Of a stretch of DNA of 61,822 nucleotides, positions 13,136 through 57,559 are shown piece after piece. The first letter of the stretch is position 1. Every line of letters begins with the position of its first letter. This stretch comes from a virus. The notes beneath the pieces are model-generated. The model saw only the letters and a list, made by a program, of their open reading frames with translations, was not told where the DNA came from and searched no databases. Both the position numbers and the translations under genes were made by a program. The DNA lies in IMG/VR virus record IMGVR_UViG_3300046373_000181, positions 1 to 61,822 of that record, one strand, 5' to 3'.

Positions 13136-16100
13136 TTAATTAGCTGTAAATTGTAACTGCTGCATGTCAATGGCCCGGTCGCGTTTCTGGCCGTTGTCCC
13201 AAACCGTAATTCTCAATGTGGTCGGTGTGGCCAGGTTCGCCCCAGCTTCAAAAACAGTAAGTGAGGGAGTCGTGTAACTACCAAATTTCAAGCTTAGTAC
13301 CCCACTCATCACCTTAATGCTAATAGGCTGATTGGCAATCAGTGCGTTCGCCGGAGCCGTAAAGGTTTGTTGTTGGGTTAACAGCGTCGTGTTTGCGTAC
13401 CAGTAGGTTTGGGCAGGCGACACATCAAACCGGGTCTTATTGTAATACCTGGCGATCACCTTGCCTGAATTATCCAGCACATCCAAATAGATACCCCCGC
13501 TGCCGGCACTGCCAAACTCTAAATCATTGCCATTGCCGAAGGTGTTGTTAACCACCCCCGACAGTTCCCAACTGGTCGAATTGTTGGCCCCCAAACTTCG
13601 ATACACGTACTCGGTTTCATTATTCTTACTGAACTTCACAAACAGATCAGGACTGGCGAACCTATTATAGTTCTGAATACTGGTCCGAATTGAACGCACA
13701 TTGCCGCTGAACTCAGCGGTCAAATCTTCCGTGCTTGTCCGGTACCATCCGGCGATGGTTGTGCTGGCTGGCAGGGTAGATAGTCTGGGCAGTCCCGAAA
13801 GTAAATCCGTAGCGGTTGTGGTCACCTGGCGAAAGGCTTTGGTCGACGCTACCAGGCTAAGGGTCTGCGTTTCGGCAATCGAGTTCAGCCCCGTTATTTT
13901 CCAGCGATCAAGGCCCGAATAGCCCCCTTCCTCGGCGTGGTAGATATAAGCCACATCGGAGTTGGTCGGATCAATGACCGCATGGCCGAAGTGCACACCC
14001 CCGGCCATACCCGTCTGATCGGTATCCCGTCCGGTGGGACCAAATACGCCGACCAGCAAGCCATTGTCATACACATGCTGCCATTTGTTGGTCTGCGAAT
14101 CTTTCCAGAACTCACCGAAGTAGTTCCAAAAAATATGTTTACCGGCGACGGCCACATCGCCCCCCGCATACCCATTCTGATTGCCGGCGACGAAATTCGC
14201 ATGGTTGCCAATATCATACGATCCGTCACTGGGATACTCCCCCTGATAGGACGGCCCACTTGTCGCATAGGCGGTTCGCCATTTCCATCTGGTGGCTCCC
14301 AGTTTGATCGCCCCTAAATGAAAGCCGTAACCGTGGCCGTTCGCCACCATGTTCTGCTGCAGAATCGGAAGTAAACTGGAGCTGGTTAGCTTGCCTGCCG
14401 ATTCGGAGCCGTAACCCGACCAGTCGATAGGATCGCTGGCTGCTAGTGTTGTTGACGCAATACCCGTAGCGGTGCCCCATGTGGGGTTGTTACTGCCATC
14501 GAAGCCAGTCAGGCTCTGTTTGGTCCAGCTATAGCCGGGTGGGGTTGCCCCCAGACTGGAAACAGTTCGGTATAGCCCCCCGTCTTTTCCCATGTAAACC
14601 GGAGCCGACAGGCTGATGCCGGTGAACCGAAGCTGACCACTCGCCGGTAGTTCAACCACACTCAATGCCCCGGTATCGTAGCGACGAAGCAGGCCATAGG
14701 TGCGCGAATTGGACAGGGTGGCTACGTTGGTGAGTGCGCCAAAAATGTCCACATTCTGAATCAGGTTATCGAGCCTGAAATATTGGGCCGGTATTTGATT
14801 TCGCCAGTTACGAACGAGCGTCCATGAGCCATTTGTCGGAGAAAGCGTTTTGGTGTAGTCAATCGCAAATTCGAGGTACTGATCGAATAGCCGGACCGGG
14901 TTATTTGCATCTAATCCACTTACGTAGCTGGCTGGAATGTAGGCGATATTGTCAATATAAGCCCGGCTCGAATTAAAATGCTGCACCCGGTAATTGCCCC
15001 GATCACCCACCCAGAAACTACCGTCACTTTGATAGGCAATAAAGCTGTCATTGATACCCCCTGATAGGTCGGAGAAGTAAAAGCGGTCATTGCTCACGAT
15101 GGGCGTGGTACTATACCCGCCCGATTGTCCCAGCGTCCATGAAGCCGCACCGGTCGCATTACTGAACCCCTTCACCTGCTGGGCTGTGCCGGCATCGCAG
15201 ACCACGACCGTGCTGCCATTCACCGTGACGGCGAGAGGAGCCACCAGTCCCGATAGCGTGACGGCCACCGTGCCTAATGTGCCGTCACTGTTCACGGGGA
15301 ATTTGGCTACCGTGTTGGTACCTGAGATAACCCACAGAAAGTTATCCGTATCCATCGCGATCTGACGCACACCCGAAAGGGTAATTGTCCTGACCAGCGC
15401 CCCGGTTGTCTTATTGAGCACGGCAATGGTACCCGAAGTGTTGTGGGAAACAAATAAGTAGTTGCCCGTTGTCTGCACGGCAAGACCCGTAATGTAGTTA
15501 TTGGTGGTTTGCAGATCAATGGCACTATTGGCGTATGTGCCCTGACCTGGTGTGTAAGATGTTCCACTCGAAAACGTCACCCGGCTATCGTCTGAAACCC
15601 GCGTAGCAAACACCCACGTATTCTTGCCGTTACCACCGGGGCTGAACAAATCATAGCCACCGTAGTACACATTGGTACCATCCGAGCAAATGTACTCTGT
15701 GGCCTGATTGGTGCCAGTGGGCAGGTACTCAATCTTCACCTGTGGCGCACTCTTGAGGAACTTCGCCGGGGAGGGCGGTCCCTCGGCGTAATGCTGGCAG
15801 AAGTATATATAGTTACCTACCTCCACCATGCCCCGGATGAATTGATACCCCTTATGGATGCCCGTCTTACTGCCACTCGTCACGGAGGTGTTACCAATCG
15901 CCCCCTCGTAGCTGTACTGCACATTGTTGACTAGCACACGGGCAAAGTAACTACCCGCCGGTACTACACCCCCCGCATCATCCAAACCGTCCCAGGTGTA
16001 AGTAAGTGGGCTTGAACTAACAGAGACTACGCCCGACCAGAGCGTCCGGATCAACGTAGAGTCCGCCGTAAAGATGCCCGCACTACTTCGATACCCAACG

Positions 16101-25775: not shown

Positions 25776-27661
25776 CGGAACGGTCGTTTACGGCCGATTG
25801 CTTCCACGAGGCCAATTTTCTTTCGATTGAGATTCCCAATCACCCCTTGCCAAACGTCAACATATAGCTCGTGCCGACCCGGCGTCTTACTACCCCCCGT
25901 GGGCATGAAGCCCGAAGGGATAGGGCTAGCCGATAGGGTCAGGGTAATGGCGTTGCCGTGGGTGATGAGCGTATTTTTGATGTCCTGTATCTGGCTCTTA
26001 ACCACCTGGGGTTCGGTGCCCGCTGCGGGCTCTTCAATCTTGGTTCGGATCAGATCGCGTACGCTCGTTTGTTGGGCCAGAATGCGTTGCAGACGTGAGA
26101 TTTTGCGCGTATCGCCCAGGGTCAGAGTATATTTGTAGGGACGAAGCACATCGCGGGTAAAGCCGGTGATTCGGGCCAGTTTGTCAATACTTAAGTCTGT
26201 ATCGATGAGCCGGATTGCGTCACCCGTTACGAAAAAGTTAGGAGGTGAGTCAATGGGAATAATGCCCGTATCGTTTGCTTTTGATTGCAGATACAACTCG
26301 TCCAGCTCCAGACTGTATTCAACCGATGGGGTACCGTTCTCGGCCAGCCAGGCCTGCCCCGCAGCGAGCAGTTTATTCTCGGCCGCTGTGACATACTCAT
26401 CCGGCATTTTCATGTCGACAAACGTGTAGGTGTCGCCGGGTTGAATCCGGAAAGGCGATGCCGGATCGGGTGAGGGAAACACCAGTCCGTTATCGTCGGT
26501 ATAAGACTTTAACTGGAGAATGTAATTGTTGGTAAAGAACTTGATCAGATCGAAACTGTAACCCGCCAGCTGGCCGGTCAGAAATGATACTTTGGGCGCA
26601 AGGCCTTTGATCTGGTATTTGAAGATGGGACGAACGTTGCCCGCCACAACCTCCGTTTCATCGTAGGCGAAGGGGTCAAAATCAACATCTACATCGGTGA
26701 ATGATAACTGGTCAACCACTTCGGTCACCGTCCCCGTCCGGTGGGGGTAGATATCATCAAAGACTTTAGTGCCTTCAATCAGCCCGTAGGTAGCAATGCC
26801 AGCACTGTCCTGTACAAATGAATCCCATGGCGAGGGGTTAGATCCCGCCGGAACAGCCGGGCCGGGTAGCTGCAAACGCGTGGCAAAGCCCCGATACCCC
26901 ACGGGTATGTTTTTGGAGCCGCCAAAGATGTAGGCCTTGGTAAAGAACTGGGTGCCCTGTACCGATTGACGGGACAGCTTATAGAGTCCGTTGCCTTGGC
27001 CGTAGCTAAACTGATCGCTTAGCGTCTGCCCGGCGGGGCCAATGGTCAGGATTCGGTTCGGCGCATCATTAGCCCGGTACTCAATGCTAAACTCCGTGCC
27101 CCATTCGGCGCACAGTCGTTGCAGAACCGACAAGCAGTTCTCGTTCTCAAACGATAGTGTCTTTGTCTCTGTTTGATCGCCGGGGATAGCCGTTCCCGCG
27201 CCACCCGACTGGGTACTCTCACCGGGTACCGACACGGTGCCCAGTCCCCACGCGCCCGAGAAGACACGGGCCATGTTGGAAAACAGCACCTCGGCAAAGA
27301 ATTGAAGGTTGCCCGTTAGCGAAAACACGCTGCTGAGCGCGTTGCCGTTAACATCGGTATCAAAGAACACCACGCGCAGCAAATGGTACTGCGGCCCTTC
27401 CAGCAACGCTTCGTATTCGTAGCGGTTGTTGCCCGTCTTGGTTACGGTGGGTAGGGTGTTAAGCGTATAGAGTTGCCCGAATACTGGAACGGTCTGCCCG
27501 ATCTGAATGCTAATGGGTGAAGTGCTTTCAATGGATACGCTCAGCGTGTCACCCGTCAGTAGATCCTGCTTCTGCTCAGCGCGCGAAACACCCCACAAGG
27601 GGTTCTGACTGGTCAGGGGGATATCGGCCCCGTCCGTTGTCCTTAGTACAAGAGGGGCCAT
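25772..27661 (-). CDS. tail-associated baseplate hub protein (Tal-like)
   Basis: 629 residues directly after the distal tail protein, overlapping the spike gene by 4 bases. N-terminal sequence and order match the prophage tail endopeptidase/hub (gp27-like) proteins of siphoviruses. There is a C-terminal short domain (HELYVDVWQGVIGNL). It joins the tail tube to receptor-binding proteins. No separate peptidase motif was found. Confidence 0.7.
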   Translation of the reverse strand: MAPLVLRTTDGADIPLTSQNPLWGVSRAEQKQDLLTGDTLSVSIESTSPISIQIGQTVPVFGQLYTLNTLPTVTKTGNNRYEYEALLEGPQYHLLRVVFFDTDVNGNALSSVFSLTGNLQFFAEVLFSNMARVFSGAWGLGTVSVPGESTQSGGAGTAIPGDQTETKTLSFENENCLSVLQRLCAEWGTEFSIEYRANDAPNRILTIGPAGQTLSDQFSYGQGNGLYKLSRQSVQGTQFFTKAYIFGGSKNIPVGYRGFATRLQLPGPAVPAGSNPSPWDSFVQDSAGIATYGLIEGTKVFDDIYPHRTGTVTEVVDQLSFTDVDVDFDPFAYDETEVVAGNVRPIFKYQIKGLAPKVSFLTGQLAGYSFDLIKFFTNNYILQLKSYTDDNGLVFPSPDPASPFRIQPGDTYTFVDMKMPDEYVTAAENKLLAAGQAWLAENGTPSVEYSLELDELYLQSKANDTGIIPIDSPPNFFVTGDAIRLIDTDLSIDKLARITGFTRDVLRPYKYTLTLGDTRKISRLQRILAQQTSVRDLIRTKIEEPAAGTEPQVVKSQIQDIKNTLITHGNAITLTLSASPIPSGFMPTGGSKTPGRHELYVDVWQGVIGNLNRKKIGLVEAIGRKRPFR

Positions 27662-28296
27662 ATCTCGGTGAGGTTAGTTTTTTGATGCACCGTCATGCGC
27701 TCCAGCTCGCCCGAAACGATCACGTAATAAACCGTGCCGGTAGTGCCCCCGTAGGTATGGCTGTAGGTCTGATTCGTGCCTTTGGCGTCGGTTTTGGTGC
27801 CGTCACCCCAGTAGATGACCAAGGGGGCCGGTGAGGTCAAGCGGATACTGGCTACCTGACCGGTTACACCCGACAGTATCCACTTGACAGGTTGCGGCTC
27901 GATGAGGGTAAGGCTGAACTCAGCCGGTATAGTCGCGTCCCGCCATTTCTTTTTAACCGAGAATCCTTTTGGCGAGTACACCTCGTAGACGAGGGGTTTG
28001 TTCTCCACCGGGTTGATCCGGAGCCTTTGGGTACCGGTCTTGACTAGTTGCGCAATGAGCCCATTTGTTTTGGTGATCAAATCGTCGGGACTGCTGGCAA
28101 TGAGCTTACAATCAAGCTCGATTTCTCGCTCTTTGTAGCGGGGGCGCAGCAGGTCGACCACCTGCCCGTGGGCATCGGGCCAGTTGACTGAGAAGGGTTC
28201 CTTAAGTTCCAATCCATCGATAACGCCCGATGAGTCGGACACGATGATGCCCAGACTTAAAAAGCTAATACCGTTGATGGAATAATTAAGGTTCAT
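27643..28296 (-). CDS. distal tail protein (Dit-like) with PKD-like domain
   Basis: 217 residues. The N-terminal part (ISFLSLGIIVSDSSGVIDG.., then REIELDCKLIASSPDD) fits the Dit fold that caps the tail tube. The C-terminal part contains YWGDGTKTDAKGTNQTYSHTYG, typical of a PKD domain, an adhesion-type extension. It is followed by the hub gene with a 19-base overlap. Confidence 0.7.
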   Translation of the reverse strand: MNLNYSINGISFLSLGIIVSDSSGVIDGLELKEPFSVNWPDAHGQVVDLLRPRYKEREIELDCKLIASSPDDLITKTNGLIAQLVKTGTQRLRINPVENKPLVYEVYSPKGFSVKKKWRDATIPAEFSLTLIEPQPVKWILSGVTGQVASIRLTSPAPLVIYWGDGTKTDAKGTNQTYSHTYGGTTGTVYYVIVSGELERMTVHQKTNLTEIWPLLY

Positions 28297-28381: not shown

Positions 28382-28441
28382 AAAAAGCAGCGCAAAAAGC
28401 CTTAAAAAAAGCAGTAAATAAAGCAAGCAATAAAGCAATTG
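28382..28441 (+). repeat. phased AAAGC array A (5 x 12 bp)
   Basis: The word (A/T)AAAGC occurs five times with the G at 28387, 28399, 28411, 28423 and 28435, exactly 12 bp apart. The other six bases of each unit vary. It lies in the 321-bp gap 28297-28617, about 85 bp upstream of the leftward tail genes. The rest of the gap is AT-rich with no gene seen. The same array occurs at 41396-41455. Confidence 0.75.
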
Positions 28442-28617
28442 ATAGATTTGTAGCGTGTTGATACTGAATTTATTAGGGCTATTATTTATGAAAACTATTA
28501 TGCTAAATAATGTAATAGTATGGCAATTGTTTGCGCGTTTGATATTTTCTTTTTTGAGTAAATAAAATTCAATAATTATTTGTAGTTTTATAGAGAATTA
28601 AACGCCAATTACTACGT

Positions 28618-28833
28618 ATGTCACTACGAACGAAAACGCAAAAGGAGAGGGAGGTAAAACACAAAAAGATTCGCAAGGTTTACCAGGAACTTTCGGCCGA
28701 TCCCAGTAACGCGAAAACGGCAATTGAGCAGAAGATCATGGATAAGTTTGGCATCAAAGCCCGCTCCACTGTTTGGAACATTGTCAGTCAACCCAGTGAG
28801 TCGCTGAGTGGTAATTTGAATCCACGTCTATAA
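28618..28833 (+). CDS. small basic DNA-binding-like protein, 71 aa
   Basis: Very basic N-terminus (RTKTQKEREVKHKKIRK) and a region (IEQKIMDKFGIKARSTVWNIV) fitting a helix-turn-helix. A lone rightward gene beside array A. It may bind nearby DNA (inference). Confidence 0.5.
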   Translation: MSLRTKTQKEREVKHKKIRKVYQELSADPSNAKTAIEQKIMDKFGIKARSTVWNIVSQPSESLSGNLNPRL

Positions 28834-31484: not shown

Positions 31485-34400
31485 TCAACCTGGCTGTCCT
31501 AGTCCGCGAGTTGAACTATCGGCAATAGTCTTTAACCGACGGTCGACAGAATCAAGTAACTCATTGGTGCGTTGTATCCGGGCTGTGTTGGCCTCAATAC
31601 CCGACAAGCTAAGCAGTTGTTGACGTACCAACACATTTGTGTCTGTGCCGGTAATGCGCATGGCATTAAGCTGCCCGGCAATAATATTTGCGGTTTGCTC
31701 GGTCACTGTGGCCTGAATAGCCTGACCTATTGAGTTCGGATTCTTGGTGCCACTTGCGCTCGTAGGCTTTAAAACATCGAATCCCATTGAGTTTGCATAA
31801 TCTTTCCATTGCTGCAAGTAAGCTAGGTATTGATCCTGTCCCTTTTTAGATGTTTCCTGAAAGCGTTTTAGATCATCAACTATATCTCCATCACCGCCAT
31901 TGTCAGTGTCAAGTGACTTGGTCATCTCTTCACCAAGTTTTTTGAAATAGGGTGCAAAAATTTGAGTATAAAGAAGCTTGGTAACAAAGTCCTCCACCAC
32001 TTTTGAAAGTACATCGGAAAAGGCCTTAGCCGCGTCGGTCCCATCCTTAAAGGCATTCACCATCGCATCGCGAAGCCCATCACCAAGACTGCCAACCAGA
32101 TTTTTAATTATGTCCTGAATGGCCTGCTTGGTTGCATCAACCTGCTTTTGCCACTCAATCGTCGTTTGTACTAAGGCTTTTGTTTTATCATCTAATTGCC
32201 CCGTATCAATCAAACTTTGAGCTAAGGCAAGGTTAATACTCTTAGTCCCATCGGCGGATTGTTGAATCAAATCGGGGTAACGCTCAAGCAACGCCCCAAA
32301 CTCATCCGCTTTTTTGGTAGCGCCCCCAAACAGTGACGTTAAAGCCCCAACGGCTGCCCCAACGGCAGCACCGATTGCCGCGCCGGCGGGGCCTGCTATT
32401 GCGCCGATTGCTGCGCCGGTTCCAGCCCCAGCCCCAATTAACTTTAACGCGCTGGTATTGTCGAGTGCGTTTTTAAGCCCCTCTTTTGCCCTTCCCTGAT
32501 TAAGCTTTGCTAATGACTCATCTAGTTTAGCTTGCGCTTTTCGTTGGGCTTCAAAGTTATCTTGTAGTTGGGCAGTGTAGTCCTCAATAAACGGATTCGT
32601 ATTTTTTGAACGAATGCCAAGTTGTTGATTGAGAAGTAGATTGTATTGCTGTTGCTGTGCAATAACTGATGCATAATACTCACTTTCGGCTTGTTTGCGT
32701 TTGGCCGCAGCTTCAGTGATGGCCGTAAATATGGTTATTAAACCCGATACAGCATTGGCGTATAGTTGTGATTTATCAACTCCTTTGGCAAAGGATGAGG
32801 TTATTAAATCCACCGAGGAGCCTAGAGCAACAAGTGCCCGCCCCGATTCTGCAGCATCACCACCTAAGTTAATTAATGCCTGACCAAATTGCCCTAAAAG
32901 CTGCCCATACTGGTTTATGATACCGATTGAACCATCGACAAGCTGTTTGTTAAGGCCATTTAAAGCTTTTTTTGCGATTTTATACGCTTCACTGTCTTCG
33001 CCATAATCTGCTTTGGCCTTATCAACTAAAGCCTGTTGATTGGCAATCTGGATTTTTAATGCTTTGCGACCCTCTTCAAGAATGACCCTAGTTGATTTTT
33101 TGTAAGCATCACTCTTTTCAAGCTGCCGCTGCTGGAAGTCTTCAATGGCCTTTTCTTCGTCGCTGTTCAGGATTGCCAATGCGGCCTTATATTCCGAATT
33201 GCGGTTGTTGATAAACTTGGTATCTAGTGCAACGCGCAACTCGGTATACTTAGTCCGAATGGCCAGCTGTTGTTGTTCGGATCCCGCGAAGTCAGTTAAG
33301 TATTGCTGAAGCTGTAGTTTTAGTTGCTGTTGCGTTTGTATTTGCTCTTCAGCTAGCTTTTGCCGTTTAGCTATGTCCGTAGGTGCGTTGGTGGGGGCTC
33401 CTAGTGCATCCTGCTTTTCTTTAAGGATAGCCAAGTATTTAGACAGACTACCCGCTTCCGCTTGAGCCCGCTGAAGGTCTTCGTTAAACTCCTGAATAGC
33501 GGTTTTCTTTCCGGTGGCTTCGTCGCGTTGGGTCAAAAGGCTACCTAGATTTTTGCTGTCCTTTTCGTTTAAGGCCCCTTTGCTTTTTTGGGTCTCAAGC
33601 CGGGCTATTTCCGTGTTGAGGTAATCAACGTAGGTCTTACCATTGCTTAGCAGTGCATCGAATTGTTTACTTGCTGAGGTTTGGCCGTAGGTATCAACCC
33701 ACTTTTGATACAGCTCATATTTAGACCGCTTATCAGCAAGTTCTTCATCAAACGATTTGATGGTGTATTGCTTTCTAAGCTCCTCAACCTTCTGGTCGGC
33801 ATCGAACTTGATTTTACTCTGCTGAGTAATCTTTGTTGTGTCCTTCGGGCTAAGCTTTTCAAGGATTTCACCCGCTTTCTTGCTGACCTGTTCGTAGTAG
33901 TCAATACTACCGAATGGCCCCGACTTGGCGGCTTCCTTAGCGGCCTTTTTCTCGGCCGCCGATAAATCCCCGGTTAACTTACGCTTCTGGGCTTCAAGCC
34001 GATCAATCTCTTTATTGATACTGGCGTTTTTGGCGTCGGTATTACCAGTGCTTAACGATTCCTTTTTTAGCTTGATTTCATCCTCAAGCTGCTCGATGGT
34101 TTTACCCTTAACGGCCTGCCCTTTGGTTTCATCTACGGTCAGCGCAGCGAGTTGGTCTTTAAATTTCTTAACGTTGTCTTCGGCCTCCTTGTAAGCGGGA
34201 GAGAGTTTATCGGCAATAGAGCCAGCCAGTCGCTGGTAGTGATCTATCTCAGCCGTTAGCTGCTCTTTGCTGGCTTTGCCTGAATATATATTACCGATGC
34301 TCGTCTCAATGTCTGAAACTACCTTGTCACGATCCGCTTTGGCTTTTCGTGCGGCAACTAAGGCCTGCTGCGCCAGTTGGGCGGGCGAGTCCCCATAGAC

Positions 34401-35933
34401 GCCGAGGCCCAGGTTTGTTTTAGCGGTTTTATTGCGATTGGCAATGACATCTTCCTCGGCTTTTTTGAGTTTTTCAGCAGCTTCGGCCTGTTGATCGTAG
34501 GCTTCTTTTGCTTTGCCCGTTGCGGACTCCAATTCAATCCGTTTGCGAAGCGCAACCAGGTATTGATTCAGCTCCTTGGTTAAGTCGGCAGTCTTGGCCC
34601 GCTGGAAGTCGAGCCCTGCCGTAATATCGGGCGCAATGGCTTTTAGTTTGTCATAGGCTTTAAGCCGCTCCGATTCGGCAACATTCTGGTTTTGAATAAC
34701 GCCGATGAGCGTCTTGATCTCACCCTGTTGCTTGTTGAAGCTAGTTGCAACCTGCCTGCCTGATTCGGCCATCAGCTCCTGCGCTGTTTTTATCTTGGCT
34801 ACCTCATCCCGGAAGACAAAGTAGGCAGTTGCCAGGGCTGCCAGGGCCGTTCCAATCAGTAAGATAGGGTTGAGGTTCATCACCCCATTTAGAGCTGCCT
34901 GGGCGCGGGTTAACAGGGCTGTTGAGGCTGCGGCTCTGGTTTGGGAAAGAGTTAGAAAGCCGGTCGCGTTGGCCGCCTGTGCCTGAGCAATAGCTTGCGC
35001 TTCGGTGATGGGGATTTGCGCCAATTGTGCTACGCTCGCCACCAGCAAAGCTGCCCGGTAGCCACCATAGCTACCAATCAGCACTTCGAGTATATCAATG
35101 ACATCCTGGTAGTGTTGCAGGACGTTGGTTGCGGTATTCAGTAGGTCAGCGGCAATGCCTTCATTTTGCTTGCCGATATCGTTGAGCATGGCCGCATAGG
35201 CGTCGCCTAGGCGTTCTTTAAGGCCCAGTAGGCTTTTGCTTTGGGCATCCAGCGTGCCGGCGAAAATACCGGAACCTGAAGTCATGCCCTCTATGGCTTT
35301 TTTTACTTCGGAAAAACCAACTTTCCCGTCTTCGACCAGGCCTCGTACTTTGTCCTCTGCCACGCCAAACTGTTTGGCCAGCTCAGCAATGAGCGGTATG
35401 CCCGAACCCACGAACTGGTTTAAATCCTGCGCAAAGAGCCTGCCCTGCGTTTTGGTGGTTCCATACAGATACGTTAACCGTTCGAATGGTAAACCAAGTC
35501 CGGCCGAAATATCGCCCAGCCGTTTTAGGGATGGGATAATCTCATTGACTGAGAAGCCATAAGCAAGCAATTGTTTTTGAGCTGTACCAACATCACGAAG
35601 ATTAAACGGGGTGGTAGCCGCAAAGGCTGCACCTTCTTTTAAAAACGCGTCCGCCTTGCTCTTAGAGCGAAGCATGGTGGTGAAGGCAATCTCTAATTGC
35701 TGAAACTCACCACGAACGCGTAGTAGCTCCTGGGGTAGTTCGGCCAGCTTACTGAACGCAAAAGCGCCTACGGCCAGTCTGCCCAGATTTTGAAACGAGC
35801 TTTCAAAGCGACCCGCTTGCTGAACGGCTGTATTGGTAAAGCCCAACACCCGACGCTCCATCGCATCCAATCTTGACTGGTAGTTGCTATCGTTTATGGT
35901 TGCTTCAAAACTCAGGGGTCCGTTGCCTCTCAT
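31485..35933 (-). CDS. tail tape measure protein
   Basis: 1482 residues, the longest gene. It sets tail length and passes through the tube during DNA entry. The N-terminal region (FQQLEIAFTTMLRSKSKADAF, TTPFNLRDVGTAQKQLLAYG) matches the tape measure domain. Hydrophobic stretches (about residues 285-375, and a Gly/Ala-rich segment IGAGAGTGAAIGAIAGPAG) and long charged coiled coils follow. Its ATG overlaps the stop of the frameshifted chaperone frame, as usual for siphoviruses. Confidence 0.92.
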   Translation of the reverse strand: MRGNGPLSFEATINDSNYQSRLDAMERRVLGFTNTAVQQAGRFESSFQNLGRLAVGAFAFSKLAELPQELLRVRGEFQQLEIAFTTMLRSKSKADAFLKEGAAFAATTPFNLRDVGTAQKQLLAYGFSVNEIIPSLKRLGDISAGLGLPFERLTYLYGTTKTQGRLFAQDLNQFVGSGIPLIAELAKQFGVAEDKVRGLVEDGKVGFSEVKKAIEGMTSGSGIFAGTLDAQSKSLLGLKERLGDAYAAMLNDIGKQNEGIAADLLNTATNVLQHYQDVIDILEVLIGSYGGYRAALLVASVAQLAQIPITEAQAIAQAQAANATGFLTLSQTRAAASTALLTRAQAALNGVMNLNPILLIGTALAALATAYFVFRDEVAKIKTAQELMAESGRQVATSFNKQQGEIKTLIGVIQNQNVAESERLKAYDKLKAIAPDITAGLDFQRAKTADLTKELNQYLVALRKRIELESATGKAKEAYDQQAEAAEKLKKAEEDVIANRNKTAKTNLGLGVYGDSPAQLAQQALVAARKAKADRDKVVSDIETSIGNIYSGKASKEQLTAEIDHYQRLAGSIADKLSPAYKEAEDNVKKFKDQLAALTVDETKGQAVKGKTIEQLEDEIKLKKESLSTGNTDAKNASINKEIDRLEAQKRKLTGDLSAAEKKAAKEAAKSGPFGSIDYYEQVSKKAGEILEKLSPKDTTKITQQSKIKFDADQKVEELRKQYTIKSFDEELADKRSKYELYQKWVDTYGQTSASKQFDALLSNGKTYVDYLNTEIARLETQKSKGALNEKDSKNLGSLLTQRDEATGKKTAIQEFNEDLQRAQAEAGSLSKYLAILKEKQDALGAPTNAPTDIAKRQKLAEEQIQTQQQLKLQLQQYLTDFAGSEQQQLAIRTKYTELRVALDTKFINNRNSEYKAALAILNSDEEKAIEDFQQRQLEKSDAYKKSTRVILEEGRKALKIQIANQQALVDKAKADYGEDSEAYKIAKKALNGLNKQLVDGSIGIINQYGQLLGQFGQALINLGGDAAESGRALVALGSSVDLITSSFAKGVDKSQLYANAVSGLITIFTAITEAAAKRKQAESEYYASVIAQQQQYNLLLNQQLGIRSKNTNPFIEDYTAQLQDNFEAQRKAQAKLDESLAKLNQGRAKEGLKNALDNTSALKLIGAGAGTGAAIGAIAGPAGAAIGAAVGAAVGALTSLFGGATKKADEFGALLERYPDLIQQSADGTKSINLALAQSLIDTGQLDDKTKALVQTTIEWQKQVDATKQAIQDIIKNLVGSLGDGLRDAMVNAFKDGTDAAKAFSDVLSKVVEDFVTKLLYTQIFAPYFKKLGEEMTKSLDTDNGGDGDIVDDLKRFQETSKKGQDQYLAYLQQWKDYANSMGFDVLKPTSASGTKNPNSIGQAIQATVTEQTANIIAGQLNAMRITGTDTNVLVRQQLLSLSGIEANTARIQRTNELLDSVDRRLKTIADSSTRGLGQPG

Positions 35934-39023: not shown

Positions 39024-40109
39024 TTAGGCTTGAACAGCCGTTGAGTCCAACAGGTAGATTTCGTCTGTGTTAGCGATGACCGGAAGGGCGCGGCCCTGAA
39101 CCGTGGTGAACTCAGCAATGGATGGCCGGTTCTGGCGGAATTTTGCCAGCAGCATCCATTCGGCGGCATTGGTATAGGCAACACCCGGCACCGGATTGTC
39201 CTGCTCGGCCAGAAAGGTGTATTCCAGCGTACCCAGATCCTCACTGCACATTGCAACGGCAATACCTGTAGCCCATGGACGAACGAGCGTTTGAACACCG
39301 TTACGCTCTTTACGGCATATCCGGTCAATTAACTCAATCGAGAAGCCGTAACGGGCTACCATGATCTTGTTGGCATCTTCCATGTCCAATGTGGTACGGA
39401 GGGTGCCAGTGTAACCAAGTTTAAAGGCAAAGTAGTCTTTAAACTGAGTGGTAGCGATCATGTTATTGAAAGCCGTACTGTCCATCATGACGGTGCGGAT
39501 AACCTTGCCGTCTACTTTGGCTTTCGCAATAACACGATCAAAATCATCCAGTGGTTTAGCAGCCGTATTGGACCAAAGGGTACCCACGCCAAACTTGTTA
39601 GCCGTTGGATAGCCAAAGTCAACCTGAAATCCGGAGCCGATGTTGTCGGTATCGTCTACGATAACCTTGCCCGTCGATAAGCCTTCCAGAAACAGGGCTT
39701 CCATTAACTCATAACCGGCATCTACACATCGCTCGGAATCAGCAAAGATTTTGGTTAAGATTGCTTTGATCTGAGTGCCGGGCGAACGCTGAAGAATGCC
39801 AAGCTGCGTGAGCTGCGTTTCGTTCAGACTCATCTCAATACCGAATTTCGGGATTCGGCCAGATGCCCGTACCAGATTGTCGCGTTTTACTTTTGGCAGC
39901 GACGAATCCATTGACACCACATAGGCCATAACGCGCGAATACGCAGCGGACAGCGATTCCCAATGGCCGGTAGCCGATTGGTTGTTAGTCAAAAAGCGAC
40001 GGAATAAATAAGTGACGGGGCTTTCAGTCCCGTTGAGGGTTTCAACCCGGTTTAAGACAACCGGCTCAAACCATTTGGCAATAAGGGCCGCAAACTGTGA
40101 TGGTTCCAT
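39024..40109 (-). CDS. major capsid protein
   Basis: 361 residues. The pattern YVVSMDSSLPKVKRDNL..ASGRIPKFGIEMSLNE and ALFLEGLSTGKVIV matches the E-type major capsid proteins (HK97 fold) of Bacteroidota siphoviruses as I recall them. It follows scaffold and decoration genes. No protease gene is seen, so maturation cleavage is probably absent or needs no phage protease. Confidence 0.82.
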   Translation of the reverse strand: MEPSQFAALIAKWFEPVVLNRVETLNGTESPVTYLFRRFLTNNQSATGHWESLSAAYSRVMAYVVSMDSSLPKVKRDNLVRASGRIPKFGIEMSLNETQLTQLGILQRSPGTQIKAILTKIFADSERCVDAGYELMEALFLEGLSTGKVIVDDTDNIGSGFQVDFGYPTANKFGVGTLWSNTAAKPLDDFDRVIAKAKVDGKVIRTVMMDSTAFNNMIATTQFKDYFAFKLGYTGTLRTTLDMEDANKIMVARYGFSIELIDRICRKERNGVQTLVRPWATGIAVAMCSEDLGTLEYTFLAEQDNPVPGVAYTNAAEWMLLAKFRQNRPSIAEFTTVQGRALPVIANTDEIYLLDSTAVQA

Positions 40110-40537: not shown

Positions 40538-41161
40538 TTATTTTTTGTTGAAAATGGCCTTCACCTCATCCGGCGATGCCTGCTTGGTCGTATCCCCATT
40601 CGCTTTTTTTGGTTGACCCATCGCATTAAGACCCGTATCGGCCACAGCCTGAATAGCCGTAGCGGCATCGGTCTTGATTTCGCCAACGTACCCTTCGAAA
40701 TCAGCATCGTCCTTGAAATTGATACCTCTGTCAAATGCCCGTAGTGTCGCCGTTTTAAAGGCATCAGGGGCACCAGCAAGGGCAGCTTCCAGTTGTGAAC
40801 GGCGCGTTTCGATGGTCTTACCCTGTTTCAAACTCGTCACTTCGTTGGCGAGGTTAGTCACCGTCTCGTTTAGAGTTTTGAGCCAGGCTGGCGTGTCGTC
40901 GGGCTTTGCGGGATCATCCGTTGGCTTGGCAGGTTGCTCGGTTGGTTTTTCTTTGGCTTTGTTGACAGCAGTTTGAACGCGTTTGTCAATTTCACCCTGA
41001 AATCCCGTAAGCAAATCTTCCACACCACTGACCGACGCGTCAATCTGACCTTCTTCCGTGACGGTTTTTTCCAGGTAGGCCGCAATCTTTTGGAGTGCTT
41101 CCTCTGAAAACCCCTTCGATTTGTACTTTTCTCGGAGAGAGGCAAGTATCTTGTCTTTCAT
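40538..41161 (-). CDS. capsid scaffolding protein
   Basis: 207 residues. Acidic/basic helices, a Pro-rich hinge (TEQPAKPTDDPAKPDDTP), then a coiled coil (LNETVTNLANEVTSLKQG) and a basic C-terminus: the general design of scaffolds that guide capsid assembly. First gene of the leftward head operon. Confidence 0.72.
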   Translation of the reverse strand: MKDKILASLREKYKSKGFSEEALQKIAAYLEKTVTEEGQIDASVSGVEDLLTGFQGEIDKRVQTAVNKAKEKPTEQPAKPTDDPAKPDDTPAWLKTLNETVTNLANEVTSLKQGKTIETRRSQLEAALAGAPDAFKTATLRAFDRGINFKDDADFEGYVGEIKTDAATAIQAVADTGLNAMGQPKKANGDTTKQASPDEVKAIFNKK

Positions 41162-41202: not shown

Positions 41203-41236
41203 CAAATATATCATTATAGACAAGTAAAAAAACAAA
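41203..41236 (-). promoter_or_regulatory. Bacteroidota-type promoter for the head operon
   Basis: Minus strand: TTTG (41236-41233), 22 bases, then TATATTTG (41210-41203), an exact -7 match. The start point is expected about 35 bp before the scaffold ATG. It lies in the 336-bp divergent gap 41162-41497, which otherwise holds array B and no gene. Confidence 0.7.
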
Positions 41237-41395
41237 TATTCCCTTAAATTTACCCGTATTAAGTCGCTAACAATCAATCATTTATGCCTGTTTTGATGCC
41301 ATTTGATATGGTATTCTACCTCTAGTTACAGTATGTTATCTATTAGGCAGTTGCAGTGATAAGGGGCTGAAACTTAATTAGTTGCTCAATTGCAT

Positions 41396-41455
41396 TAAAA
41401 CAAGGAATAAAGCAACGTCTAAAGCGAATTGTAAAGCAGCGGATAAAGCGTAACG
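41396..41455 (+). repeat. phased AAAGC array B (5 x 12 bp)
   Basis: TAAAGC starts at 41408, 41420, 41432 and 41444, exactly 12 bp apart, preceded in phase by a degenerate TAAAAC at 41396. Located 43-102 bp upstream of the terminase small subunit gene. Same word, period, number and strand as array A at 28382-28441. Candidate binding site for a late regulator or for the small terminase (pac-like). Confidence 0.78.
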
Positions 41456-41497
41456 GTACAGGCTATACGGCCAAAAAAAATAAGTAAGTGAAACGCT

Positions 41498-42067
41498 ATG
41501 AGGGCTAAAAGTGAAGGCGAACCCGAGAAATTAACCGATAAGCAGAAACGATTCTGCGACGAATACTTAATTGACAACAATGGCACACAAGCCGCCATAA
41601 GGGCTGGCTATGCCGAATCAAATGCCCGATCGACAGCGAGTGAATTGTTGGGAAATGTTGGGATTCAGGATTATTTGGCTGAACGAAAAGCCATACTTAA
41701 TAAGCAACTCGAAGACAAGTATTTTATCAGCAAAGAACGCGTATTAAGAGAACATGCACGAATTGCCTTTTCAGATATTCGGGCTTTTTTCAACCAAGAT
41801 AACAGCCTAAAAGACTTCTCAGAATTGACGGAAGATGAGGCTGCATCGCTAAGCAGTGTTGAGGTTGATGAGATTAAGGAAAACTTCGTAGTCGTTGGGC
41901 AAACAAAGAAGATAAAAGTCTACGATAAGAAAGGCTCACTAGCTGAAATAGCCAAGATCATGGGCTATTACGCACCGGTTAAGACTGATCACACCACCAA
42001 GGGCGAGTCGCTGAACTCAGGATTCTACGCACTACTCAAAAAAGCCTCAACAAAAGCCAATGACTAG
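41498..42067 (+). CDS. terS: terminase small subunit
   Basis: 189 residues. The N-terminal LTDKQKRFCDEYLIDNNGTQAAIRAGY is the Terminase_2 family helix-turn-helix signature, which recognises the packaging site. The rest is an oligomerisation and C-terminal region. It overlaps the large subunit gene by 8 bases. Confidence 0.92.
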   Translation: MRAKSEGEPEKLTDKQKRFCDEYLIDNNGTQAAIRAGYAESNARSTASELLGNVGIQDYLAERKAILNKQLEDKYFISKERVLREHARIAFSDIRAFFNQDNSLKDFSELTEDEAASLSSVEVDEIKENFVVVGQTKKIKVYDKKGSLAEIAKIMGYYAPVKTDHTTKGESLNSGFYALLKKASTKAND

Positions 42068-43646
42068 CGAACTGGAAGAGGAGGCTGTAGAGCGTATACA
42101 ACTTTGGCAGGAAGACTGGAATCAGTTTGCCTACGAAGTACTGGGCGCCAGGCTTGATAAAGAACAGCAGGCCATCCTGTCCAGTGTTCAAACCAATTCC
42201 AGAACCAGCGTTGCCTCAGGAACAGCACGGGGGAAAGATTTCGTAACGGCAGTTTCGGCGGTTTGCTTTATGTATTTAACGCCACGGTGGAATGATACAG
42301 GCGATTTAATCGAAAATACAAAGGTGGCATTAACCGCCCCATCAGGCAGACAGGTTGACAACATCATGAAGCCTGAGTTTGCCCGACTCTTTCACAAAGC
42401 ACATAGAAACGGATTTGAGTTGCCCGGTCGACTTGTCGCTTCCGACATTCGCACAGATTTTGAAGAGTGGTTCCTAACGGGTTTCCGTGCCGATCCTTAC
42501 CACCACGAAGCCTGGTCAGGCTTTCACGCTGTCAATACCATGTTTGCGGTCACAGAAGCCTCTGGCGTATCCGATGACACATTTGAGGCCATTGAGGGCA
42601 ATTTGCAGGGCAACTCCCGTATGCTGGTTGTGTTCAACCCAAACTCCAAGGTTGGCTACGCGGCTCGAAGTCAGAAGGGGAGTCGATGGACTAAGTTTAG
42701 ACTTAATAGTCTTTCGGCACCAAATGTCGTTGAGAAGCGAATCATCATCCCCGGTCAAGTTGATTACAACTGGGTAGTCGATAAGCTAGAGCTTTGGTGT
42801 AAGAAAATCAGGGCGGATGAGATTGACGAAACGCAGGACGACTTCGAGTTTGAAGGGCAATGGTACCGGCCTAATGATACCGCCAGGAAGAAAGTACTGG
42901 GCAAGTTTCCGAAGGTTGACGAGGGAGCGCTTATTGCCGAACAGTGGATTGAACTGGCAAATGAACGCTGGATTAAATACCATAAGACGAAACGCGTTGA
43001 TCAGTATCCTAATTCATTAAAACTTGGCGTCGACGTAGCTGGTATGGGGCGGGATAGTACCGTATTTGCCTACCGTCGGGGCAACATTGTCACTGAGTTC
43101 TATAAATACAATTCGGGCGGCACTGCGAATCACATGGAAACAGCGGGGCGTATTGTGAATATACTCAAAAGCGACCCCAAATCATTGGCCTTTGTCGACA
43201 CTATTGGTGAAGGGGCGGGCGTCATATCAGCCACCAATCAGGCTGGTTATAGCAAACAAGCGTTTTCCTGTAAATATTCCGAATCAGCAAAGGATACTAG
43301 CGACAAACCACTTAATGATCTGACCGGACAATACACCTTTGCCAATATGAGGGCGTATCTGTATTGGGCAGTAAGAGATTGGCTTGATCCAAAGAACTAC
43401 CCGGAAGGTACACTAGAAATGTATTTGCCGATGTTGCCGCCGAATGACAGCCTGTTGGAAGAGGCCACCGAAATACAGTGGTCATTTCAATCCAACGGGA
43501 ACATCATCATTGAACCCAAAGAAGACATTATCGAACGGCTCAAGCGCTCGACCGATGAGTTTGACGCCCTGGCCAATACATTCTACCCCACAAAAGCGCC
43601 AATAAATTCAGAAACACTTAGAAGAACACTCTCTGGCATGCGCTAG
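42060..43646 (+). CDS. terL: terminase large subunit
   Basis: 528 residues. ATPase and nuclease that packages DNA into the head. An unusual Walker A-like loop SGTARGKD (53-60) has Asp where Ser/Thr is normal. The nuclease domain begins LGVDVAGMGRDSTVFAY, with a second acidic motif FVDTIGEGAGV and late acidic residues EFDALAN. Gene order confirms the role. Confidence 0.92.
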   Translation: MTSELEEEAVERIQLWQEDWNQFAYEVLGARLDKEQQAILSSVQTNSRTSVASGTARGKDFVTAVSAVCFMYLTPRWNDTGDLIENTKVALTAPSGRQVDNIMKPEFARLFHKAHRNGFELPGRLVASDIRTDFEEWFLTGFRADPYHHEAWSGFHAVNTMFAVTEASGVSDDTFEAIEGNLQGNSRMLVVFNPNSKVGYAARSQKGSRWTKFRLNSLSAPNVVEKRIIIPGQVDYNWVVDKLELWCKKIRADEIDETQDDFEFEGQWYRPNDTARKKVLGKFPKVDEGALIAEQWIELANERWIKYHKTKRVDQYPNSLKLGVDVAGMGRDSTVFAYRRGNIVTEFYKYNSGGTANHMETAGRIVNILKSDPKSLAFVDTIGEGAGVISATNQAGYSKQAFSCKYSESAKDTSDKPLNDLTGQYTFANMRAYLYWAVRDWLDPKNYPEGTLEMYLPMLPPNDSLLEEATEIQWSFQSNGNIIIEPKEDIIERLKRSTDEFDALANTFYPTKAPINSETLRRTLSGMR

Positions 43647-50321: not shown

Positions 50322-51788
50322 CTAAAAAAAAGGTTTGCTTTTGGTTTCGTTTCGATTCCTGACCAGAGTATCCAGCTCTTTATCAACCAAATGCCCCGTC
50401 ACCTTGACGTAGTTGCGCTCGGTAACCCCGATGGTTGAATGCCCTAACGCATTGCTTACCGCCTTGATGCTATAATCTTGCAGAAAGATAACACCCGCTG
50501 TTTTTCGTCCGATTTTGGGCGTTAAGCGTTTTTCAAACCCGATCAGCTCCGCAATCTTCTCCAGATGGTTAATCATGGTGGTGTCAGAAATAGCCGGTGG
50601 GGCCTCCCCTATCACCTCATCCCATAAATCAACAAGTTGACTCGTAATGGGGATGTTACACTCGGAGTTATTTTTCTCGCGGCGGATAATGATCTTCGGA
50701 TTCCCGCCGGGCGTTCGGGCCTCGTAGGTCTCTTTGGCACTGGCGTAGCGGATCGCGTCGGGTAGATCCATGCCCGTTAGGCAAATGAGGCGAAACCACC
50801 AATGCGTTACTTTATAGCGGCCGGGCACTTCAAGCGTAAAGAGTCTCTCAATATGAATAGGTTCTAAAAAGTACACGTCTTTGGCCGGATTGCCCGGCAG
50901 GCCCAGATCGCCAATCGCGCCTACCGGGTTCCGCTCGATAAGGTGCTGCTTGCGCAGCCAGGTCAACAGCTCACAAACCACCGAGCAGTATATCGTCGCC
51001 GTACCGGGACTCATCCGCTCGTTTCGATGCTTGCAGCGGGGATTGCCAGAGGGCTGACAAAGCAGCCACTCGTGGTATTTCTCCACCCAGTAGGGCGTTA
51101 GGCTCATCACCGGTATGTGCATAGAGAGCGGGTATCTAGCCAGCCAGTCCGAGGCTGCCTTACGTTTATTATACGTCGCCAGCTTCATCTGACCCGTGGC
51201 TTTCTTGCCTAGTGTCAGCTCGATTAGATACGCGGCCATCGCTTGCCGGATCGGCGTGTCGGGTCCCAGGCTCGCGTGGGCCAAGCCGTTCTGTGCCAAC
51301 AAGGGCGATGACTTGCCCGGCCGGACCTGCTTGGCTTTGCGAGATAAAAACTTCGGCGGATACACGAACTGATCCCCCTGCACGGCGGGGGCATTACCGG
51401 TCAAGTATTCGAACTTGACCGAATCGGTCGTGGGCCGGGGCGCGCGCTGGGCATCGTAACGCATTTGCTGTTTGGACTGAATATCTTTTAGATCAATTTG
51501 AATGCGTAGGATGCGTTCGTTAAGATCTAACGTCGGCGCATCCCGTCCCCTAAGCCGGTATTTTTTCTGATCCCAGGCCCGAAGATCGATAAGCAATATA
51601 TTTCCAAAACTTACCTCACCCGTGCCCTGATGAATGAACCGTTCACGGGCGACAAAGCCAGCATCCCGAACCGAATTTACGGTGAGCCTGACTAGTAAAT
51701 AACGCTCATGCGCAGAGGCACTGGCGCGGGGTGGAGGAAGCTTTGTTTTAAACTGAATAGTGGCAGGCATTCGTAGACGTATCAACAT
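50322..51788 (-). CDS. int: tyrosine integrase (Bacteroidota type)
   Basis: 488 residues, site-specific recombinase for integration. The catalytic part has TGMDLPDAIRYA where others have TGLR (the first Arg is not in its usual place), the Lys region RREKNNSECNIPI, then KIGRKTAGVIF in place of HxLRH, the second His in LGHSTIGVT and Tyr in RNYVKV. GRKT and loss of the first Arg are common in Bacteroidota integrases, but Lys in place of the first His is less usual. The start could be an internal Met at 51770. Confidence 0.85.
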   Translation of the reverse strand: MLIRLRMPATIQFKTKLPPPRASASAHERYLLVRLTVNSVRDAGFVARERFIHQGTGEVSFGNILLIDLRAWDQKKYRLRGRDAPTLDLNERILRIQIDLKDIQSKQQMRYDAQRAPRPTTDSVKFEYLTGNAPAVQGDQFVYPPKFLSRKAKQVRPGKSSPLLAQNGLAHASLGPDTPIRQAMAAYLIELTLGKKATGQMKLATYNKRKAASDWLARYPLSMHIPVMSLTPYWVEKYHEWLLCQPSGNPRCKHRNERMSPGTATIYCSVVCELLTWLRKQHLIERNPVGAIGDLGLPGNPAKDVYFLEPIHIERLFTLEVPGRYKVTHWWFRLICLTGMDLPDAIRYASAKETYEARTPGGNPKIIIRREKNNSECNIPITSQLVDLWDEVIGEAPPAISDTTMINHLEKIAELIGFEKRLTPKIGRKTAGVIFLQDYSIKAVSNALGHSTIGVTERNYVKVTGHLVDKELDTLVRNRNETKSKPFF

Positions 51789-54808: not shown

Positions 54809-57000
54809 TGACTACAGAATCAAAAAGCCCGGCAATTTCTTTATATCGTGACGTAACCGATACGGGCGGAACGGAAATTATTTTGCGTGATTTTTTTGAC
54901 GGTATTGCTACTGGAAGGTGGCAAAAAGAAGTCGAAGAAATACGGGCATTAAAAGGAAACGAATCTGCCCAAAAAGCAAAAAAAATCAAACAACAAAATG
55001 TAATTATTGGCGGTACATCCAACGCGGCCACTAATACAACCATGCGCGAATTATCGGGCAAAATGGCTGTTGACTTTGATGATTTAGGCGATGAGCTGGA
55101 AACGGTTAGACTTGAATTAAATAACGACCAGCATACATTTGCTTCGTTTAAATCAATTCGTGGTGAGGGGCTATGCGTTATTATTAATATACAGCCTGAA
55201 CGTTGGGAAGAAGCCTGGGAAGGGGTTAAGCTTTATTACTTTCAGAAGTACGGGCGGTTAGTTGATAAAAGTACCGGCAATATTGCAAGGCGTCGCTTTG
55301 TTTCGTATGACCGGGATATTTATGTCAATGAGAAAGCAACACTCTTTAAACTGTATCCGAAAAAAGAACGTAAAGCCCCAAAGCCACAGGGAACATTCAT
55401 TCACACATCAAACGATGTTGAGTATATTCTGGAACAGATTGAGCGACGGGCATTAGATCTAACCAGCGATTACGATACTTGGTTTAAAATGGGCTTTGCC
55501 TTGGTTGCTGAATACGGAGAGAATGCCCGGGAATACTTCCACCGACTAAGCCAGTATCATCCAAAATACCGCCCTGACGAATGTGATAAGACGTTTTCGT
55601 ATCTACTTCGGTATGGTGCCCGGCAAATAACGATTAAGACGTTTTATTATCACGCTAAGCTGGCGGGGCTGGAAACGATGACACCCCGCACCAAAGAGAT
55701 TGCTCGTACAGCTACGATGCAGAAGCGGCAAAAGTTAAAAGCGGATGATGTTGTCGACTCTCTGGTAAAGGTGGGTGGGGTGGGCCGGGATGAAGCCGAA
55801 AACATTGTAAAGCAGGTCTATGAAAGTGTAGAAGAGATTCAAACCGATGATACACTATTCGATCAGCTTGAATTTTTTTTGCGGCAAAATTATCCAATGC
55901 GACGTAATGAAATATCCAGGTATATAGAAGATGAATCTGGTAAGAGTTTAATTGACGACGATTTCAATGGGATATGGGTTCATGCCGTAAAAGTTTTAGG
56001 TGATCGAGTATCGGATAAAATGGTGAATAAATTAATTCACTCTTCTTTTACGCCTACGTATAATCCGATTAAGGATTTTTTCAGAGACTATTCTTATCGA
56101 AAGCCAACAGGATTAATTAAAGCATTGGCTGATACAATTGAATCAGATACGGGACTTGGTCCTAGTGAATTTTTTCCCAACTATGCAGAGGTGTTTATTC
56201 GAAAATGGATGATCGGCATCATTTCCGCTGTTTTTGGAGAACACTGTGAATTGCTATTGACTTTGACCGGAGAGCCAGGAACAGGAAAAACAGAATGGTT
56301 TCGTAGGCTATTGCCTCCAGAATTAGCCGTTTACTTTGCCGAAACAACGTGGCCAATTACAAAAGATACGGACATGCTGATGTGCGAAAACCTAATCACT
56401 TTTAATGATGAGTGGAAAGGGAAAACGGTAAAGGATCCGGAAACTTTAAAAGGTTATGCTAGCGTGGACCGCTTCACTTTGAGAGAGCCTTACGGTAAAT
56501 CTTTCGTGAAACGTCGGCGCTTAGCAGTAATGTGTGGCACATCAAACCCAACTCGAATAATTGCTGATGCGAGTAATAACCGGAAAGTTATTCCTATCAA
56601 TGTCTTGTCTATAAATTTTGAAGCTTATAATTCAATAGACAAGATTGATCTTTTTATGGAAGCCTTTCATGCCTATATGAATGGAGAGCGACACCACTTG
56701 ACAAAGGACGAAATAAAACGCTTCAACGAAAGCACCAGCGGTTTTGATGATGCATCGATAGAACGGCAGATTATTGATGAATACTTTGCAGTGCCGACCG
56801 GCGCAGGTGGTGAGCCGGTACAATGGATTAGCACACATGAAATCCAAACAAAATTGGAAGTGTGGGCTAACAATAGAAAGCTGGACAACCGTAAGATCGG
56901 GCATGAGTTGCAGTCGGCTGGCTTTAAACGTCGCCAGCGCCGGGGTGAATACGGCAAACAGTTCTGGGGTTATGATGTAGTTGTCACCAGTAAGATTTAG
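54805..57000 (+). CDS. primase-helicase (BT4734-like N-terminus, VirE helicase)
   Basis: 731 residues. The N-terminal third (ELSGKMAVDFDDLGDELETV..GEGLCVIINI) fits the VirE N-terminal/BT4734 primase-like domain seen in Bacteroidota mobile elements. The C-terminal third has LTGEPGTGKTEWFRR (Walker A about 489-496), DEWKGKTVKDPE and the VirE pattern TSNPTRIIADASNNRKVIPI. Likely replication initiator and helicase. Its 3' end carries the first iteron of the origin. Confidence 0.88.
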   Translation: MMTTESKSPAISLYRDVTDTGGTEIILRDFFDGIATGRWQKEVEEIRALKGNESAQKAKKIKQQNVIIGGTSNAATNTTMRELSGKMAVDFDDLGDELETVRLELNNDQHTFASFKSIRGEGLCVIINIQPERWEEAWEGVKLYYFQKYGRLVDKSTGNIARRRFVSYDRDIYVNEKATLFKLYPKKERKAPKPQGTFIHTSNDVEYILEQIERRALDLTSDYDTWFKMGFALVAEYGENAREYFHRLSQYHPKYRPDECDKTFSYLLRYGARQITIKTFYYHAKLAGLETMTPRTKEIARTATMQKRQKLKADDVVDSLVKVGGVGRDEAENIVKQVYESVEEIQTDDTLFDQLEFFLRQNYPMRRNEISRYIEDESGKSLIDDDFNGIWVHAVKVLGDRVSDKMVNKLIHSSFTPTYNPIKDFFRDYSYRKPTGLIKALADTIESDTGLGPSEFFPNYAEVFIRKWMIGIISAVFGEHCELLLTLTGEPGTGKTEWFRRLLPPELAVYFAETTWPITKDTDMLMCENLITFNDEWKGKTVKDPETLKGYASVDRFTLREPYGKSFVKRRRLAVMCGTSNPTRIIADASNNRKVIPINVLSINFEAYNSIDKIDLFMEAFHAYMNGERHHLTKDEIKRFNESTSGFDDASIERQIIDEYFAVPTGAGGEPVQWISTHEIQTKLEVWANNRKLDNRKIGHELQSAGFKRRQRRGEYGKQFWGYDVVVTSKI

Positions 57001-57319
57001 CTGTCACCAGTCTGTCACCAGTAATTTTTAAGGCAGTGGTGACAGATAGAAAATTGAAAATCAGTGCTTTATCTATATAGTAACCACTGTCACCAGTAAT
57101 ATTATATATAAAGCACAGGAGAGAGAGATAAATAATAATAAATTAAGGGGTTGTAAGGGGTAGTGAAGTAAGGTAGTATGTGTGTCGTATGTATAAGCAA
57201 AATCCAAGCAAAATACTGGTGACACTGGTGACAGCATTTAACTCGCTAATAAACAGCAGATTATCTGTCACCAAAGACGAAAATTGATTAGTGACAAACA
57301 ATAAAAACAGTGGTGACAG
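56981..57319. repeat. iteron cluster, probable replication origin
   Basis: Nine copies of CTGTCACCAGT or its complement (0-2 mismatches): + at 56981, 57001, 57012, 57087, 57265; - at 57035, 57215, 57224, 57309. Inverted arms GTGCTTTAT (57064-57072) and ATAAAGCAC (57108-57116) flank the central copy, next to an AT-rich tract (57098-57150). No gene lies in 57001-57319. Directly behind the primase-helicase gene, this is the best origin candidate. Confidence 0.85.
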
Positions 57320-57559
57320 ATGAAAAAGACAGACATTGAGTTTTACAAAGTCCGGGTGGCGACACTACGTAAGGAATTCAAAACGCTAAGCGAGTATGAA
57401 GCAATTCGATTAATTCAGGAAGAAACTAGGAATGACTTGCTTGATAAGTGGCATCAAGACTTTATTAAAGCCCATGTAATAAGCAGCTTAGACAATACGC
57501 CAACCGCACTAGAAAAGATTGCAATGATTTTAGATGAACGCTTACCTCACCAAATTTAA
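57320..57559 (+). CDS. hypothetical helical protein, 79 aa
   Basis: Charged helices (YKVRVATLRKEFKTLSEYEAIR). The ATG follows the last iteron with no gap, so origin binding could also control its expression. No domain recognised. Confidence 0.6.
   Translation: MKKTDIEFYKVRVATLRKEFKTLSEYEAIRLIQEETRNDLLDKWHQDFIKAHVISSLDNTPTALEKIAMILDERLPHQI

Follow-up and report, generated by a model that had tools for sequence, protein, structure and literature searches.

Arrays of 12-bp direct repeats as candidate control sites of late operons in a phage genome and its relatives

Apl of phage 186 is both a recombination directionality factor and a regulator, a small phage protein that binds direct repeats head to tail and cooperatively; its operators consist of five to seven direct repeats of 10-11 bp, about one helix turn, and lie between promoters (PMC7498355). 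Winged-helix oligomers of the RdfS/BldC type also assemble head to tail on DNA with approximately one turn per subunit and a flexible choice of sequence, and RdfS has no consensus motif (PMC11963761). In the packaging (pac) sites of SPP1 and SF6, direct repeats precede the small terminase gene (terS) and a late promoter; the SPP1 site overlaps promoters and the start of its terS gene and contains three different repeat sets, the DNA-binding domain of SF6 has little specificity for the pac repeats, and in rings of small terminases (TerS) the neighbouring helix-turn-helix (HTH) motifs are about one DNA turn apart (PMC4737164, PMC6316719). Here we describe two noncoding arrays of direct repeats in a virus genome that share features with each of these systems and differ from all of them.

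The whole stretch of DNA that was analyzed (the window) is a virus record of 61,822 bases. Its head genes run leftward from 41161, starting with a phrog_5824 gene of unknown function that is scaffold-like by position only (40538..41161, minus strand) and including the major capsid protein (39024..40109, minus strand; phrog_29, Phage_cap_E). The packaging genes run rightward from 41498 and comprise terS (41498..42067, plus strand; PF03592 Terminase_2), the large terminase gene terL (42060..43646, plus strand; assigned by tblastn to annotated phage terminases) and the portal gene. An inserted cassette with antirepressor, HTH and other genes interrupts the late genes; further leftward genes are that of the tape measure protein (31485..35933, minus strand; phrog_9959) and the first gene of a separated tail operon, which has a weak Dit match (27643..28296, minus strand; phrog_14220). 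The integrase is located at 50322-51788, and the window contains neither an Rfam match nor a tRNA.

Array B (41396..41455, plus strand) is composed of five 12-bp units of the form TAAA[AG]C[AG]N5, in order TAAAACAAGGAA, TAAAGCAACGTC, TAAAGCGAATTG, TAAAGCAGCGGA and TAAAGCGTAACG, the first of which has the degenerate word AAAAC and the other four the exact word AAAGC. The start of terS, the first rightward gene, follows 42 bp after it. Array A (28383..28442, plus strand) lies upstream of the leftward tail operon and has the exact word in all five of its 12-bp units (starts at 28384, 28396, 28408, 28420 and 28432), with the same strand and pitch. The original prediction, made from the letters alone, had placed array B at exactly these coordinates, just upstream of terS, with five units (one degenerate) and with the word, 12-bp period and strand of array A, and all of this was reproduced. 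Its further statement that there are only two such arrays also held, as a scan of all 5-mers at pitches of 9-40 bp found no other place in the window with any 5-mer at least four times at a fixed pitch. The pattern AAAGCN7AAAGCN7AAAGC, with one mismatch allowed, has six matches in the window versus 0.02 expected from shuffles, and Markov simulation gave an array of this kind in 0 of 30 runs on the whole window and in 1 of 500 runs on AT-rich intergenic sequence. Array B is a genuine feature. The triple AAAGC pattern was absent from the 16 related records searched, three of which are host genomes of 5-7 Mb, and the word alone is uninformative as a search key, with 119 stretches in viral contigs that fall nearly all in K-A-rich coding repeats.

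Relatives were identified through the first gene of the head operon (phrog_5824) and came from genomes as well as metagenome contigs, which were in part fragmentary. For each of the 100 upstream regions collected, we scored the best five-unit tandem array at every pitch from 8 to 20. The period of 12 was the only one with outliers (nine loci at 14.5-21.6); the maximum score at the other pitches was 12.7, and shuffled versions of the same regions reached at most about 11. Ten phages carry an array, namely the window, G231, G127, G217, G229, G218, G198, G224, G548 (a fragment) and G211, the last with a weaker score (11.4) yet clear CTAAGC units. The hosts of the nine relatives are Cytophagales where known. 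Each array has five or six units that are direct repeats on a single strand. Relative to the head gene it occupies an upstream position at 175-256 bp, and the first rightward start codon follows 0-61 bp after its end. The pitch, the place and usually the strand are constant, and the word varies by phage: TAAAGCR in the window, RAAGCA in G218, CAAGCA in G548, CTAAGC in G211, TGAAACA in G224, TCAAAACR in G127, TAATGCAR in G198, TTAGACAA in G229, TTGAGGYAA in G231 and CGTAAR in G217. In an alignment by eye, a loose N-A-R-R-C-A core can be recognized in most of these words, on the strand that points away from the head operon. Close relatives found by TerS or TerL alone had no comparable arrays, which came into view only through the comparison of head genes.

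The leftward head operon has a predicted promoter, as the -7 element TATATTTG (41203..41210, minus strand), which precedes the first head gene by 42 bp, matches the Bacteroidota consensus TAnnTTTG (PMC6847099). A leftward TATATTTG box stands 30-42 bp before the head gene in eight of the ten array-bearing phages, and a similar leftward head promoter is present in array-free phages such as G191. Since G191 keeps the same promoter, late expression in general does not require the array, whose distance from the leftward -7 element (approximately 200 bp) is far for a simple activator. Directly after array A, TAGATTTG (28443..28450, plus strand) might serve as a rightward -7 element toward an HTH gene, a weak assignment given that G is disfavoured there in Flavobacterium (PMC6847099).

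Two further elements were observed near the leftward promoters. A second conserved box, approximately TAACTATCTGATT, lies on the leftward strand between promoter and array in G231, G198, G211, G229 and G218, and also upstream of the head gene of array-free G191 and of the tape-measure gene of G197; it may be a separate late-regulator site. In G217, G218, G198 and G548, the leftward head promoters contain an imperfect inverted repeat, CTGCTTGCAATATAAGCAG, that overlaps the region upstream of the -7 element.

In most phages the partner of the array is ambiguous by position, as it stands between divergent operons, and the additional arrays are more informative. Array A precedes the separated leftward tail operon at a distance of 87-146 bp. 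G231 has a second array (RAAGCR, score 17.9), 197-247 bp upstream of a separately placed tape-measure operon, with leftward genes on both sides and no rightward gene there. In two other phages, G197 and G210, the HTH gene is present and a homologue of the head gene is absent. Two weak arrays occur in G197, at the starts of the tail and the tape-measure operon, and share the 12-mer GAAATTGAACAA on opposite strands; G210 has a single array. The three scores (13.4, 13.4 and 14.9) are near background, given that array-free regions reach 14.65 at period 12, and we regard them as suggestive only. On the basis of the second array of G231 and of array A, with the G197 arrays as suggestive additions, the common partner of the arrays is the leftward late operon.

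The original prediction had left open whether array B is a late-regulator site or a packaging site. The first half is supported by the position of the arrays upstream of the head operon in all ten phages and by the extra arrays that the window and G231 have before a separate tail operon and tape-measure operon, respectively. The second half was reasonable given the pac sites of SPP1 type: array B stands directly before terS, and the window TerS is a Terminase_2 protein, the family that includes SPP1 gp1. A ring of the small terminase would then be wrapped by the array, with its HTH domains on successive 12-bp units, and packaging would start adjacent to it. The site is not, however, consistently found with terS or its promoter when relatives are compared: terS of G231 and of G548 is some 5-6 kb from the array, which remains at the head divergence. 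Second arrays occur elsewhere, 13 kb away in the window and before the tape-measure gene in G231. The words of the window and G231 differ even though their TerS proteins are 61% identical, and across the phages the similarity of words is uncorrelated with that of TerS (r about -0.08), which counts against TerS as the binder. Arrays also occur with at least two large-terminase types, and G191 has none despite a terminase close to that of the window. Unlike the pac sites of SPP1 and SF6, arrays of the window type do not keep to terS and are duplicated at other operons, and they lack the three different repeat sets of SPP1. We consider a packaging function unlikely.

Because 12 bp correspond to four codons, we also tested the arrays for translation. 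Within the unit, about 7 contiguous bp are conserved and the spacer, about 5 bp, is variable, a layout that would suit a protein contacting one face of the DNA. Comparison of the units shows equal conservation at the three codon positions (0.62, 0.63 and 0.60), and whichever frame is used, the ratio of nonsynonymous to synonymous differences is 0.7-0.9. The frame that is open in other phages is interrupted by stops in array A, whose own open frame has no start codon; elsewhere, start codons are inconsistent between the arrays of different phages. The combination of an open frame with a start and third-position variability, as in a coding tetrapeptide repeat, was not found. These observations, namely the equal codon conservation, the stops in array A and the inconsistent starts, led us to reject a K-A-x-x peptide and to read the arrays as DNA sites. 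The earlier remark that one frame would give K-A-x-x repeats with no start codon to support them was supported as to the absence of translation and correct about array A, but in array B a TTG start at 41382 opens 23 codons in frame 0.

The same data bear on the alternative that the array is transcribed as a leader of the rightward operon, acting as a 5'-UTR RNA element or through a short peptide of four-residue repeats. Several phages do have an open frame with hydrophobic-K/R/E-A/Q-x repeats, in G218 and G229 the stop of this frame overlaps the next start codon (ATGA), the array end is close to the first rightward start codon, and leaders of Flavobacterium average 33 nt (PMC6847099). The conservation pattern and the stops and starts described above argue against the peptide, and behind the second array of G231 there is no rightward gene for a leader to serve. 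A leader function is, in our view, quite unlikely.

We return to the reading of the arrays as DNA sites and to the protein that might occupy them. As the words are uniform within each array and different between phages of one host genus, the reader is expected to be phage-encoded. A chromosomal regulator or nucleoid protein of the host would agree with the distribution by host, as arrays are found in all seven head-gene genomes of one host genus and are missing from most phages with other hosts. However, words that differ this strongly within one genus and are uniform per array are not what one host specificity would produce, and we regard a host reader as very unlikely.

Among phage genes, the lead candidate is a small predicted HTH protein of 71 aa (28618..28833, plus strand), whose gene is the first one rightward of array A in the window and directly follows the array in G224. 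Its family is the real gene best associated with array presence, occurring in seven of the ten array phages versus zero or one of ten array-free phages (gene content being incomplete in G198, G224 and G548) and in 7/7 head-gene genomes of the one host genus versus 2/29 others, an association in which host genus and common phage ancestry are confounders. Two array phages, G127 and G548 (a 43-kb fragment), have no detectable homologue, and none was found in a search of viral contigs. Among the 39 families compared, HTH similarity tracks word similarity most closely (r 0.59; p about 0.01 by permutation), although this p value fails correction over the 39 families and comes from seven phages of shared ancestry. 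For instance, the window and G218 have a common AAAGC word and a nearly identical third helix, KARSTVW[NR]IV. The similarity of the capsid, portal, tape measure and head-gene proteins, like that of TerS, does not follow the word (r -0.08 for TerS); second HTH copies in G218 and G231 were also considered and rejected, as they show no co-variation (r -0.07). An AlphaFold model of the HTH protein has three helices and no wing at moderate confidence (pLDDT 77), and neither a fold search nor a sequence search of the PDB gave a significant match, nor did Pfam or PHROG. Co-occurrence and co-variation are suggestive only, and we propose this protein tentatively as the array binder, an assignment that is somewhat more likely to fail than to hold.

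Taken as sequence features, the arrays are probably sites in the control regions of late operons that a phage DNA-binding protein occupies in tandem, head to tail. Arrays A and B would act at the DNA level: a phage-encoded protein would fill the five or six 12-bp sites, each protomer covering roughly one helix turn, and array occupancy would set the activity of the adjoining late promoter. Array B would serve the leftward head operon, with a possible additional effect on the divergent packaging operon, and array A the separated tail operon. The private word of each phage would result from co-divergence of the binder and its site. Protein binding, late timing, the choice between activation and repression, and the identity of the binder are all points that we infer from the genomes.

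The arrays share with Apl, Cox and Xis operators noncoding direct repeats in one orientation at about a helix turn (12 bp, five or six units), but the arrays stand at late operons, whereas Apl sites are found at att and the early pR-pL switch with a spacing of 10-11 bp. In place of a winged-helix binder of the excisionase family, the candidate here is a wingless HTH protein, unmatched in the searches, with no detectable relation to excisionases. It differs in the same way from RdfS and BldC, being a predicted three-helix protein without a wing, and each array has a uniform word in contrast to the absence of a consensus for RdfS. To our knowledge, and within the literature searched, late-gene control in temperate Bacteroidota phages is largely undescribed. 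These phages might possess a system in which an undescribed family of small HTH proteins polymerises on fixed 12-bp arrays before late operons that are transcribed separately, with word and recognition helix co-diverging fast into a private late-switch code per phage; we put this forward as a doubtful proposal. With its constant pitch and place and phage-specific word, the array would mark late promoters in unannotated prophages and point to a small protein family as binder candidate, and the pairs of word and recognition helix would offer a natural series for specificity change in tandem DNA readers.

Several other sequences were noted in the course of these comparisons. The window (41452-41477) and the joined G224 sequence (1657-1682) share, after the array, AACGGTACRGGYTATACG plus an A-run, and the differences between the two would be synonymous in a reading as NGTGYT; the stretch runs straight into the HTH gene in G224 and into terS in the window, and is possibly a shared remnant of the HTH gene start. 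Joined G211 has a noncoding 12-bp array with another word (ATACTGTTA/ACTGATCTT) at 33047-33107, upstream of a leftward late gene. Head-to-tail 12-bp repeats of CCTAACCTA in related phages (L023, 295-355; joined G002, 15746-15805) resemble the arrays in period and arrangement, but they lie inside a replication-type reading frame, have a different word and adjoin TTGACACC repeats, and were set aside as likely origin iterons. In the window itself, many copies of CTGTCACCAGT and ACTGGTGACAG occur on both strands at 56974-57330, where the primase/helicase gene ends and directly behind it, and look like replication-origin iterons.
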